DNA of 64,000 nucleotides from positions 248,001 to 312,000 of the forward strand of contig LDXX01000006.1 in the NCBI GenBank assembly GCA_001442925.1, written 5' to 3'. This document shows, piece after piece, positions 1 to 44,994 of this stretch. This DNA comes from Candidatus Kryptonium thompsonii. GTDB taxonomy: Bacteria; Bacteroidota; Ignavibacteria; Kryptoniales; Kryptoniaceae. Below the pieces are notes generated by a model that searched no databases, was not told the origin of the DNA, and saw only the letters and a list, made by a program, of their open reading frames with translations. A program made the translations under genes and the position numbers. Each line of letters opens with the position of its first letter. The first letter of the stretch is position 1.

Positions 1-522
1 ATTTTTGAAAGTGGACATGTGAGAAATAAAGCGAGTTTTTCCGTGCTTGCAAATTATATCGTTTATGACTTTGAAAGCGTCGCATCAAGTGTTAAAAGTT
101 ATGTTTTTAGGCAGTTTTATTTAAACGATTCAATTTTATTTCCGATCTTTGATAAATTAAATTTTGAAGGTAGCTTTCAATTAACTTTTTCGGAGAGCGG
201 AAGGTTGAAATGGAAAGAGTTTAAGGAAAAGCCAGCTCTTTTTATAAGTATAGGTGAATATAACCTTAGGTTAAACTATGCGTTAAACAATATGACAAGA
301 TTTTCAGTTGGTTATCGGTTCTTCGATGAGAAAAGATATAAGTTTGTTGGGCTTGACAAAGTTTTGGATTCGAGGATAACGGCGACTGGTCCAACATCCA
401 AAGTTGAGTTTGAAAGTGGAAAATTTAAATTAAATTTTGAAGGATGGGTTGAAAGATTAAAGCTTGGGGGTAAAGTAAACAGTTTGCCAAATTTGAATTT
501 AAATTTAACGATTAACTTATGA
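1..522 (+). CDS. C-terminal part of a surface or outer-membrane protein (5' truncated by window edge)
   Basis: The reading frame is open to the first base, so only the C-terminal ~173 residues of a longer protein are visible; the internal GTG at 19 need not be the start. The sequence alternates hydrophobic and polar/aromatic residues in short segments (for example LFISIGEYNLRLNYAL and FSVGYRFFDEKRYKF), as in outer-membrane beta-strands. I do not recognise the family. Its stop overlaps the start of the next gene (ATGA), so the two are probably translationally coupled. Confidence 0.6.
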   Translation: MFESGHVRNKASFSVLANYIVYDFESVASSVKSYVFRQFYLNDSILFPIFDKLNFEGSFQLTFSESGRLKWKEFKEKPALFISIGEYNLRLNYALNNMTRFSVGYRFFDEKRYKFVGLDKVLDSRITATGPTSKVEFESGKFKLNFEGWVERLKLGGKVNSLPNLNLNLTINL

Positions 523-962
523 AAAAAACGGCTTCAATAAAACCGAAGATTGAGCTTGCGGAGTTTCCATCTAAGGATTCTTCACTGAAAAAATTTGAGA
601 GATTCTTTGAGGGTTTGAGGAGAAAATATAAGATTTCCGATGATGATTACCATAGAATTTATCTCGCTTCAAGTGAGGCATTTATAAATGCGATTGTTCA
701 TGGCAATAAGCGTGATCCAAATAAGAAAGTAAGGGTTAAATTTAAGGTTTTTAAAAGAAGTTTTGAGATAGAGATACAAGATGAGGGGGAAGGATTTACA
801 CCTGAGGGGGTTCCAGATCCGACGGTTGATGAGAATTTGCTAAAGGAATCTGGGCGTGGGGTTTTCATTATGCAGGCTTTTGCAGATGTGGTAAAATTTC
901 ACAAAACGAAATCAGGTATGAAAGTTATAATCAAAATAAAAAAGCGATCGAGCGCCCTTTGA
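519..962 (+). CDS. RsbW-like ATP-binding protein (anti-sigma factor serine kinase type)
   Basis: This 147-residue GHKL-fold ATPase has the motifs of the RsbW/SpoIIAB class. An N-box (SSEAFINAIVHGN) lies near residues 48-60, a G1-like loop (DEGEGF) near 88-93, and a G2 motif (GRGVFIM) near 112-118. It has no histidine-kinase dimerisation domain. Family members bind and inhibit sigma factors and phosphorylate a STAS-domain antagonist, but no sigma factor or STAS partner lies beside it, so its target is unknown. It overlaps the upstream gene by 4 nt. Its last codons overlap the terminator hairpin of a predicted RNA on the opposite strand. Confidence 0.8.
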   Translation: MKKTASIKPKIELAEFPSKDSSLKKFERFFEGLRRKYKISDDDYHRIYLASSEAFINAIVHGNKRDPNKKVRVKFKVFKRSFEIEIQDEGEGFTPEGVPDPTVDENLLKESGRGVFIMQAFADVVKFHKTKSGMKVIIKIKKRSSAL

Positions 963-1090
963 AAAGGGTCGCCCGATCGCCAACGGAGGTGCTACGGCGG
1001 GCGTTAAAGTTCTAAAAGAACGGGGAATTATGCTAAAGGTGCCAATCTTGAGGTGCTTCTTTTAGGTGCTTATTAAGGTGCGTCTTCATT
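938..1090 (-). ncRNA. Predicted sigma-54-dependent small RNA with five GCACCU motifs
   Basis: No protein gene is visible here. On the minus strand a perfect sigma-54 promoter (1101-1116) predicts a start near 1090. The transcript would carry GCACCU five times, at plus positions 1076-1081, 1064-1069, 1051-1056, 1037-1042 and 987-992. The first four are spaced 12-14 nt apart by AU-rich linkers; the last is extended to GCACCUCC. A small hairpin (GUUCU-AAA-type, 1009-1021) lies between the fourth and fifth copies. The 3' end is a long hairpin (944-980) followed by six U (938-943) and more U-rich sequence, an intrinsic terminator in this direction only. The motif is complementary to AGGUGC-type Shine-Dalgarno sites, so I infer a multi-seed antisense regulator. 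Transcription and boundaries are predicted. Confidence 0.6.
944..980 (-). terminator. Intrinsic terminator of the predicted small RNA
   Basis: The arms GCGATCG...GCG...CCCTTT (944-960) and AAAGGG...CGC..CGATCGC (964-980) pair almost fully, with one mismatch and one bulge. In the minus direction the hairpin is followed by TTTTTTATTTT; in the plus direction it is followed by CAACGGAGG with no U-tract. The polarity therefore assigns it to a minus-strand transcript. Confidence 0.75.
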
Positions 1091-1100
1091 TATAGAAAAA

Positions 1101-1116
1101 TGCAAATATCGTGCCA
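1101..1116 (-). promoter_or_regulatory. Sigma-54 (RpoN) promoter, perfect consensus
   Basis: On the minus strand the sequence reads TGGCACG-ATAT-TTGCA, matching the -24/-12 consensus TGGCACG-N4-TTGCW at every fixed position, with the required GG-N10-GC spacing. No minus-strand protein gene follows, so the product is predicted to be the small RNA ending at 938. Confidence 0.75.
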
Positions 1117-1174: not shown

Positions 1175-1204
1175 TTGTCATAATTTTAGACACAAAAGTG
1201 ACAA
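1175..1204. promoter_or_regulatory. Inverted repeat TTGTCA-N18-TGACAA, possible activator site
   Basis: A dyad (1175-1180 and 1199-1204) lies about 85-115 nt upstream of the predicted sRNA start. Sigma-54 activators usually bind 80-150 nt upstream of their promoters. The half-sites are only 6 bp, so chance is possible. Confidence 0.3.
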
Positions 1205-1213
1205 GTTTGGCAA

Positions 1214-2854
1214 ATGCTCACAAACTATCATACATTGAAAGCTCTGGTTCAAAAAATCAAACCTAATCTTGAAGGCTCCGTTATAGTTGAGGCGTTCACG
1301 CAGGAAAAGGACACGCTCCACATAACCTTGGGTAAGGGGGATAATCTTTTCACAATTGAGCTTAATGCAACTGGACAAGGGTATATGTTTTTACGCCAAA
1401 AGGTTGAAAGGGCAAGAAAAAATTCACTTGATATTTTCCCAGAGATTTGGGGTGATGAGATAGTTGATGCACAGATTCATAAGGCGGATAGGGTGATAGA
1501 AATTTTTCTTTCATCGGGGAAGAAACTTTTTCTGCAATTTTTCACGGGCAAAGTTAATTTCTTTCTCACTACCGATAAAAACGAGGTAATCTCGTCGTTT
1601 AAAAATCCAAGGGAAAATATAGGTAAGAGAATTGAGTATGAAAATTCTGAATCAAATTACAAGGCGATGGTAAACAACTTTGAACTTTTAAAGAAGGCAT
1701 GGGAAAGTTTAAATATTGAAGATCCTGTGCGACGACTCGTCAAGGCAGTTAATACAATTGATATGTTGATGGCGAGGGAAATCTTGCACAGAAGTGGCGA
1801 TGGCGATATTGAAAAAATTTGGGTTTGTTTAGGTGAAATTGATAAAGAACTTGAGGATCCGTTACCACGGATTTATTATGATGGGAGTTTTCCAAAATAT
1901 TTTTCAATAATTGAATTGACACATTTAAATCTTAAAAAAGTTGAGTTCGAGGATATTAATGAAGCGATAAGAAAATTCGTCATCGAGACGAAGATAAATA
2001 AAAGCTTCTATGACGAGAAAAAGTCGATCTTGGATAAACTTAAACATTTGCTCAACAAGGCGGAGCGAACGGTTGAAAAAATTAAAGAGGAAATTGCTAC
2101 GAATCAAAGGGCAGAAATGTATGAAATTTATGGCTCGATATTGATGGCAAATTTGAACGCCTTGCACAAGGGGATGGAGGAAGTTGAACTTTTAAACATC
2201 TTTTCCGAAGGTGGGGAGAAGATAAAAATTAAGCTTGATCCTTCATTATCACCAGTTGAAAATGCAGAAAGATATTTTGAGAAAGCAAAAAGGACAAAGG
2301 CATCACTTAAAATCGCAAGAGAGAGATTGGAAAGGTTGGAAGTTAACATAGAAAAATTAAAGGAGTTGATTAATAAGCTTGACGAAACCGATAGCTTTGA
2401 AGATTTGAAAAAATTCAAGATGGATAACTTGGCTGATCTTAAAATGTTTGGAATCATAAAAGACAAGGTCGCTGAAAAAATCGGCGATAAATTTAGAAGA
2501 TTTATCGTTGATGGTGGTTTTGAGGTATGGGTTGGGAAGGATGCGAAAAGCAATGATTTGTTAACTTTGAAATTTGCGGATAAAGAAGATATGTGGTTCC
2601 ATGCTCGGGGAGTTCGAGGTGCACATGTAGTTTTAAAAACAGGCAGAAGACAACCAAGCAAAAAAGCGATTGAGCAGGCTGGTAGCATCGCAGCATATTT
2701 TAGTGATGCGAGGACATCTTCCCTTGTCCCAGTTGTGGTCACGAAGCGAAAATATGTGAGAAAACCGAAGGGAGCACCTGAGGGGAGCGTCATCGTTGAA
2801 CGGGAAGAGGTTATAATGGTTGAACCTAAATTACCGTTTGAGGAGATAGAATAA
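1214..2854 (+). CDS. rqcH: NFACT-family ribosome quality control protein RqcH
   Basis: This 546-residue protein is the bacterial Rqc2 homologue, which binds stalled 50S-peptidyl-tRNA complexes and adds C-terminal alanine tails. The N-terminal NFACT-N domain contains the conserved Asp-Arg pair (ADRVIEI, D92-R93) needed for tailing in characterised RqcH proteins, and a NPRENIGKR segment. Two charged coiled-coil stretches (about 265-310 and 350-400) form the M domain. The C-terminal NFACT-R domain has the hallmark DMWFHARGVRGAHV near residue 459. Many database entries call this family fibronectin-binding protein. The start has no strong Shine-Dalgarno site but fits the family N-terminus. Confidence 0.9.
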   Translation: MLTNYHTLKALVQKIKPNLEGSVIVEAFTQEKDTLHITLGKGDNLFTIELNATGQGYMFLRQKVERARKNSLDIFPEIWGDEIVDAQIHKADRVIEIFLSSGKKLFLQFFTGKVNFFLTTDKNEVISSFKNPRENIGKRIEYENSESNYKAMVNNFELLKKAWESLNIEDPVRRLVKAVNTIDMLMAREILHRSGDGDIEKIWVCLGEIDKELEDPLPRIYYDGSFPKYFSIIELTHLNLKKVEFEDINEAIRKFVIETKINKSFYDEKKSILDKLKHLLNKAERTVEKIKEEIATNQRAEMYEIYGSILMANLNALHKGMEEVELLNIFSEGGEKIKIKLDPSLSPVENAERYFEKAKRTKASLKIARERLERLEVNIEKLKELINKLDETDSFEDLKKFKMDNLADLKMFGIIKDKVAEKIGDKFRRFIVDGGFEVWVGKDAKSNDLLTLKFADKEDMWFHARGVRGAHVVLKTGRRQPSKKAIEQAGSIAAYFSDARTSSLVPVVVTKRKYVRKPKGAPEGSVIVEREEVIMVEPKLPFEEIE

Positions 2855-44978: not shown

Positions 44979-44994
44979 TGCAATTATCGTGCCA
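44979..44994 (-). promoter_or_regulatory. Sigma-54 promoter, perfect consensus
   Basis: On the minus strand TGGCACG-ATAA-TTGCA matches the -24/-12 consensus fully. The predicted start near 44968 gives a 43-nt leader for the lipoprotein gene. It lies between the end of the CHASE2-sigma-54 activator gene and its likely target. It shares TGGCACGATA with the promoter at 1101-1116. Confidence 0.8.

Follow-up and report, generated by a model that had tools for sequence, protein, structure and literature searches.

The small RNA FsrA carries repeated or C-rich anti-Shine-Dalgarno motifs. Likewise, LhrC of Listeria (PMC4132741) and IsrR of Staphylococcus (PMC9410917) use redundant motifs, C- or CU-rich, to pair with Shine-Dalgarno (SD) sequences and block translation, and the rhizobial NfeR1 (alpha-r14) assembles several identical anti-SD motifs, of demonstrated redundancy, in one trans-acting, multi-target and Hfq-independent sRNA, one of whose targets is an NtrBC system (PMC10746234). 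Sigma-54-dependent sRNAs are also known: the Qrr RNAs of Vibrio, which are multi-target, Hfq-dependent and LuxO-activated and comprise four stem-loops (PMC8043402), and CrcZ/CrcY of Pseudomonas and Azotobacter, which titrate Hfq-Crc and relieve repression (PMC6292655).

Here, I describe a locus of Ca. Kryptonia that likely encodes a lineage-specific, multi-target, trans-acting sRNA, predicted to be transcribed by sigma-54 RNA polymerase and to repress translation. Judged from its sequence, the RNA would work like NfeR1, LhrC and IsrR and be driven like Qrr and CrcZ/CrcY, yet it has the defining features of none of these families. As in NfeR1, several identical anti-SD motifs lie in a single RNA, but NfeR1 displays CCUCCUCCC in three hairpins, whereas the Kryptonia RNA has a largely linear GCACCU array and a single core, and only GCACCU(CC) is found in it; moreover, LsrB and NtrC control the NfeR1 promoter, which has no sigma-54 signature, and no sequence relation between the two RNAs was detected. 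Redundant SD-pairing motifs are shared with LhrC and IsrR, which differ in belonging to another phylum, in their UCCC or C-rich runs, in their structured hairpins and in their regulation by LisRK or Fur. With Qrr the locus would share sigma-54 dependence and multi-target control of translation; Hfq dependence, the four stem-loops, LuxO activation and the lack of a GCACCU array set Qrr apart, and the Kryptonia RNA has no Rfam match to it. CrcZ/CrcY are, like the predicted RNA, sigma-54-dependent sRNAs tied to catabolic control, but they titrate a protein complex through CA motifs, whereas the GCACCU motif is the complement of mRNA sites, and the Kryptonia RNA would pair with mRNAs. An earlier note on this DNA knew of no described RNA of this form, although the form has precedents (FsrA, NfeR1, LhrC and IsrR for the motifs, Qrr and CrcZ/CrcY for sigma-54).

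Architecture of the locus

The window, i.e. the whole stretch of 64,000 nucleotides that was analysed, comes from a Ca. Kryptonia MAG of 2.59 Mb; the organism is uncultured and from a hot spring. The minus strand carries, in this order, a sigma-54 promoter, four GCACCU copies, the CGTTCTTTTAGA box, a 25-nt core with a fifth GCACCU and a terminator (Table 1). The promoter, reading TGGCACG-ATAT-TTGCA (about 1116-1101), the five GCACCU copies and the hairpin with its U-tract are as the earlier note described them. The putative +1 was placed 12 nt past the -12 GC of the promoter. The terminator consists of GCGATCGGGCGACCC-loop-GGGCGCTCGATCGC, then TTTTTTATTTT, and it is mainly because of this element that the fold of the predicted 158-nt RNA beats dinucleotide shuffles (z -2.6). 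The unit has its own promoter and terminator and lacks a conserved ORF, as expected of a trans-acting, SD-blocking sRNA.

Table 1 Features of the Kryptonia RNA locus and its neighbours (positions in the window)
Feature	Position	Strand	Remarks
Predicted small RNA	933..1090	(-)	about 155-158 nt; promoter-to-terminator unit kept in six Kryptonia genomes
Sigma-54 (-24/-12) promoter TGGCACGATATTTGC	1102..1116	(-)	strict consensus
Candidate activator site, dyad TGTCTAAAATTATGACA	1176..1192	(-)	~60 bp upstream of the -24 element; partly conserved
GCACCU copy 1	1076..1081	(-)	present in 6/6 species
GCACCU copy 2	1064..1069	(-)	GCACTT in G004
GCACCU copy 3	1051..1056	(-)	missing in G006; degenerate in G003 and G004
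GCACCU copy 4	1037..1042	(-)	G000, G002 and G003 only
GCACCU copy 5	992-987	(-)	inside the core; as GCACCUCC at 992-985
Conserved CGTTCTTTTAGA box	1011..1022	(-)	conservation across species
Invariant 25-nt core CCCGCCGTAGCACCTCCGTTGGCGA (= CCCGCCGUAGCACCUCCGUUGGCGA)	977..1001	(-)	identical in six species
Intrinsic terminator	933..980	(-)	stem 980-944, U-tract 943-933
HATPase_c_2 (RsbW-like) gene, convergent neighbour	519..962	(+)	Pfam PF13581
RqcH/FbpA-like gene (presumed), divergent neighbour	1214..2854	(+)	ORF

Distribution and conservation

The order promoter, GCACCU array, core and terminator is found in six of the seven genomes of the genus and in 0/287 other genomes searched in the class; the genus member without it, G005, is 71% complete. 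When a covariance model was run against 294 genomes of the class, strong matches (98-107 bits) were confined to the six genus members, and neither blastn nor covariance searches returned anything convincing outside the genus; weak covariance matches in G125 and G279 lie inside coding sequence, lack GCACCTCC and were rejected. Rfam yielded only two tRNAs in the window and no match to the RNA above the gathering cut-off, the best sub-threshold one being the SR6 antitoxin (22.3 bits vs a cut-off of 55); the antisense and terminator-like matches that appear at a permissive threshold are all sub-threshold. With no Rfam match and no description found in the literature searched, the RNA appears to represent an undescribed sRNA family.

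Conservation is unevenly spread along the unit. The promoter is kept in all six species, with the variants TGGCAT in G004 and TTGA in G006. In the terminator stem 14/14 pairs are kept in every sequence, five of them with two-sided compensatory changes, a result matched by 0/500 shuffles. The core may fold into a hairpin presenting ACCUCC, whose predicted pairs never vary across species. The four upstream GCACCU copies are spaced by 12-14 nt and stand in register across species (+9, +21, +33/34, +47/48), and nowhere else on contig C6 (780 kb with both strands counted) do three or more GCACCU fall within 110 nt; the number of upstream copies ranges from 2 to 4, dropping to two in G006, and they are degraded in G003 and G004, which suggests that the core and the promoter are more strongly constrained than the array. 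The earlier note had proposed a covariance-model search in relatives, asking whether promoter, GCACCU copies and terminator are conserved while linkers drift: promoter, core and terminator are indeed conserved in the six species, but the upstream copies are looser, some being degenerate, which departs in part from that expectation. The likely functional centre is the invariant core, in which the fifth copy sits.

Complementarity to ribosome-binding sites

The right half of the core, GCACCUCCGUUGG, is complementary to the SD CCAACGGAGGUGC, which is its reverse complement, and in the strongest cases the left half, CCGCCGUA, pairs with UAUGGCGG, i.e. with the start codon and the second codon. The core as a whole is the complement of an ideal ribosome-binding site, and unlinked genes have ribosome-binding sites complementary to this conserved region. 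In the seven genomes ACGGAGGTGC occurs 47 times vs 3 for the reversed control, a control that leaves general SD use uncorrected; six of the 47 are the RNA gene itself, and 33 of the other 41 sit 1-7 nt upstream of a start codon, gene starts being called by a simple script with SD preference. In 13 genomes of the sister family, where the RNA is absent, the motif is not enriched (87 vs 86; 41:3 vs 87:86, Fisher p=3e-8).

General SD use is corrected for in tests of the nucleotides flanking the SD, which involve few genes, three of the C6 targets sharing one operon. Of the decamers in 97 GGAGG SDs sampled on C6 and C4 (nearly all of both contigs), ACGGAGGTGC is the commonest, and its AC prefix co-occurs with its TGC suffix (5/8 vs 9/89, p=0.0013). 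Outside the RNA gene of G000, GGAGGTGC lies at start codons in 7/8 cases when preceded by AC and in ~6/34 when not (p=0.0004). When the flanks were shuffled around a fixed CACCUCC, none of 150 blocks attained the pairing energy of the real top three; the count of genes with 10 contiguous pairs, a weak measure alone, is matched by 24/500 flank shuffles. The strongest pairing is that of a gene for a PEMT/ICMT-like membrane protein (-45.9 kcal/mol), with a TmoA-like gene and a lipoprotein gene at -36 to -38 kcal/mol; for seven candidate targets, net binding ranges from -17.6 to -29 kcal/mol, compared with -11.1 kcal/mol for a gene of the same operon that is not a target.

The canonical 16S tail is CACCUCCUU; the AC and TGC flanks of the SD match the RNA and not this tail, and flanking C residues give 16S pairing no help. 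These points bear on the idea that ACGGAGGTGC is just a strong SD favoured in Kryptonia, the RNA being real but having few or no mRNA targets. GGAGGTG does pair with the 16S tail anyway, and AC-prefixed GGAGG SDs without TGC exist (the above 9/89); however, the co-occurrence of the two flanks and a pairing that reaches the start codon in the best cases make this reading unlikely, although it is the least improbable of the alternatives considered.

Predicted targets

Complementary SDs recur at orthologous genes, in keeping with the multi-target, sigma-54-driven RNA with anti-SD motifs that the earlier note had put forward, for which the conserved promoter, core and terminator argue as well. Within the operon for aromatic degradation, such an SD is found at the gene for the monooxygenase beta subunit in all six genomes examined, at that for the alpha subunit (as GGAGGTGC) in four of the six, at that for the effector subunit in two of the six and at that for catechol 2,3-dioxygenase in five of the six; the majority of the genes of the operon are without the motif. 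The motif is also present at the genes for nicotinamidase and for a 203-aa protein (three genomes each), for a cytochrome-b561-like protein, for COX2 (G005 and G006) and for the PEMT/ICMT-like membrane protein (3/3 genomes with an intact copy). In G003 the last gene is an apparent pseudogene, in three pieces with stops (L173, L176, L179; C12:468630-469268).

The predicted regulon would include aromatic monooxygenase subunits, catechol 2,3-dioxygenase, NAD salvage (nicotinamidase and nicotinate phosphoribosyltransferase) and membrane or respiratory proteins. Aromatic degradation via catechol meta-cleavage, at high temperature, is part of the description of Kryptonia, in the text of which the term 'small RNA' is absent (PMC4737851); if the present reading is right, no earlier sRNA for which a regulon has been predicted in Ca. 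Kryptonia was found in the literature searched, and this would be the first. A gene for an NtrC-family activator (L082, G000:C6:130052) has the SD AACAAACGGAGGTGATGCGATG (AC-GGAGGTGA), which can form 10 nt of complementary pairing with the core, and a feedback of the RNA on this activator is possible. An oxygen-dependent or iron-sparing theme is suggested by the mono- and dioxygenase, COX2, the cytochrome-b561-like protein and an Fe-S protein; it is not claimed here because NAD salvage, CBS, an acetyl-CoA synthetase-like protein and secreted proteins fit no single theme. Finally, GGAGGTGC recurs every ~204 bp inside long ORFs at L038-L040 (G000:C2:14827-15242), which is a repetitive protein, unrelated to the RNA.

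Proposed mode of action and alternatives

In the mechanism proposed here, for which expression, sigma-54 dependence, the signal, repression and the role of the upstream copies are all predictions from DNA, sigma-54 RNA polymerase would transcribe an RNA of ~155 nt while some enhancer-binding protein is active, and the intrinsic terminator would end it. The invariant core would then pair with translation initiation regions, with GCACCUCCGUUGG lying over the SD (CCAACGGAGGUGC); the best targets would in addition have their start codon and second codon (UAUGGCGG) covered by CCGCCGUA. Such pairing would occlude the ribosome-binding site, exclude ribosomes and lower translation. The 2-4 upstream GCACCU would serve as extra, weaker anti-SD sites, providing redundancy or allowing one RNA to bind several mRNAs; that the array supplies such sites is probable by analogy with the redundant motifs of LhrC and NfeR1. 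Since no Hfq was found in the seven genomes, the RNA would pair on its own or with the help of a different chaperone, and the long, GC-rich core would suit both chaperone-free pairing and a thermophile.

More tentatively, and with doubts outweighing confidence, the locus may be seen as a sigma-54-controlled anti-ribosome-binding-site RNA of a candidate phylum in which no Hfq was detected, with a core that complements SD plus start codon in a nearly general way. Genes would join the regulon by evolving the flanks around an ordinary SD, the GCACCU array would be a multivalent mRNA trap, and the RNA would coordinate aromatic degradation with NAD salvage and respiration, perhaps feeding back on an NtrC-family activator. 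The mechanism proposed above shows, for its part, how many genes could be controlled without Hfq by reading the nucleotides that flank the SD core.

Tandem short motifs at regular spacing, AU-rich linkers and a sigma-54 promoter are also what one would expect of a sponge titrating an RNA-binding protein, for which the CA motifs of the likewise sigma-54-dependent CrcZ/CrcY, acting on Hfq-Crc, offer a precedent (PMC6292655). A sponge, though, should share its motif with the mRNAs, whereas here the mRNAs have the complement, extended over both SD flanks, and the genomes show no Hfq; titration is thus improbable.

The genomic neighbourhood could be taken to favour a cis-acting RNA, namely an antisense transcript or a bidirectional terminator of the convergent HATPase gene, in which the anti-SD resemblance would be incidental. 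The terminator overlaps the last ~30 nt of the plus-strand HATPase ORF, so that the 3' end of the RNA is not strictly intergenic, and synteny is constant wherever neighbours were read, the HATPase gene and the gene that I take, from sequence knowledge, to be RqcH/FbpA-like being identical neighbours at L005, L006 and L007 (G001, G004 and G006). Yet the invariant core and the GCACCU repeats lie beyond the HATPase ORF in the window, and it would have to be coincidence that complementary SDs recur at other places in the genomes; I regard this alternative as very improbable. A leaderless micro-peptide mRNA, with an AUG at the predicted 5' end (ATG in G000, G002, G003 and G006) and repeats encoding His-Leu units (MKTHLNEHL in G003), is scarcely credible and was rejected, since the frame is not conserved: the peptide varies from 5 to 19 aa by species, the frame breaks past the first repeats, G001 has no ATG at that place and the core is untranslated.

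Sigma-54 promoters and activators

By sequence, the locus has the -24/-12 promoter, and the genome the activators, expected of a member of a sigma-54 regulon: the whole genome holds 9 matches to the strict pattern TGGCACN5TTGC, the RNA promoter being one of them, vs 0 for the reversed control, and 11 strong sigma-54 activator genes were counted. A text search for the rpoN box found none in the approximately one third of the genome that was read (nearly all of C6 and C4 and parts of other contigs), a coverage at which this result is uninformative. The dyad upstream of the RNA promoter is the only place on contig C6 where AAAATTAYGAC has a sigma-54 promoter downstream; it may be the activator site, or may instead be part of the divergent rqcH promoter.

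Further sigma-54 sites deserve mention. A second strict one in the window (44980-44994, minus strand; L034) lies ahead of a predicted lipoprotein, near an ORF of 890 aa that has a sigma-54 activator domain (C6:293737-294231). Other strict sites, at L028 and L029, are located ahead of a response-regulator-like gene and of a ferredoxin-type protein, after which comes a probable CO dehydrogenase catalytic subunit (named by eye). At L032 1501-2050 (G000:C5:198888), a sigma-54 promoter comes soon after a gene with an activator domain and is followed by more than 500 nt of untranslated sequence, which contains CTCGTTCTTTTAAATT, resembling the CGTTCTTTTAGA box of the RNA.
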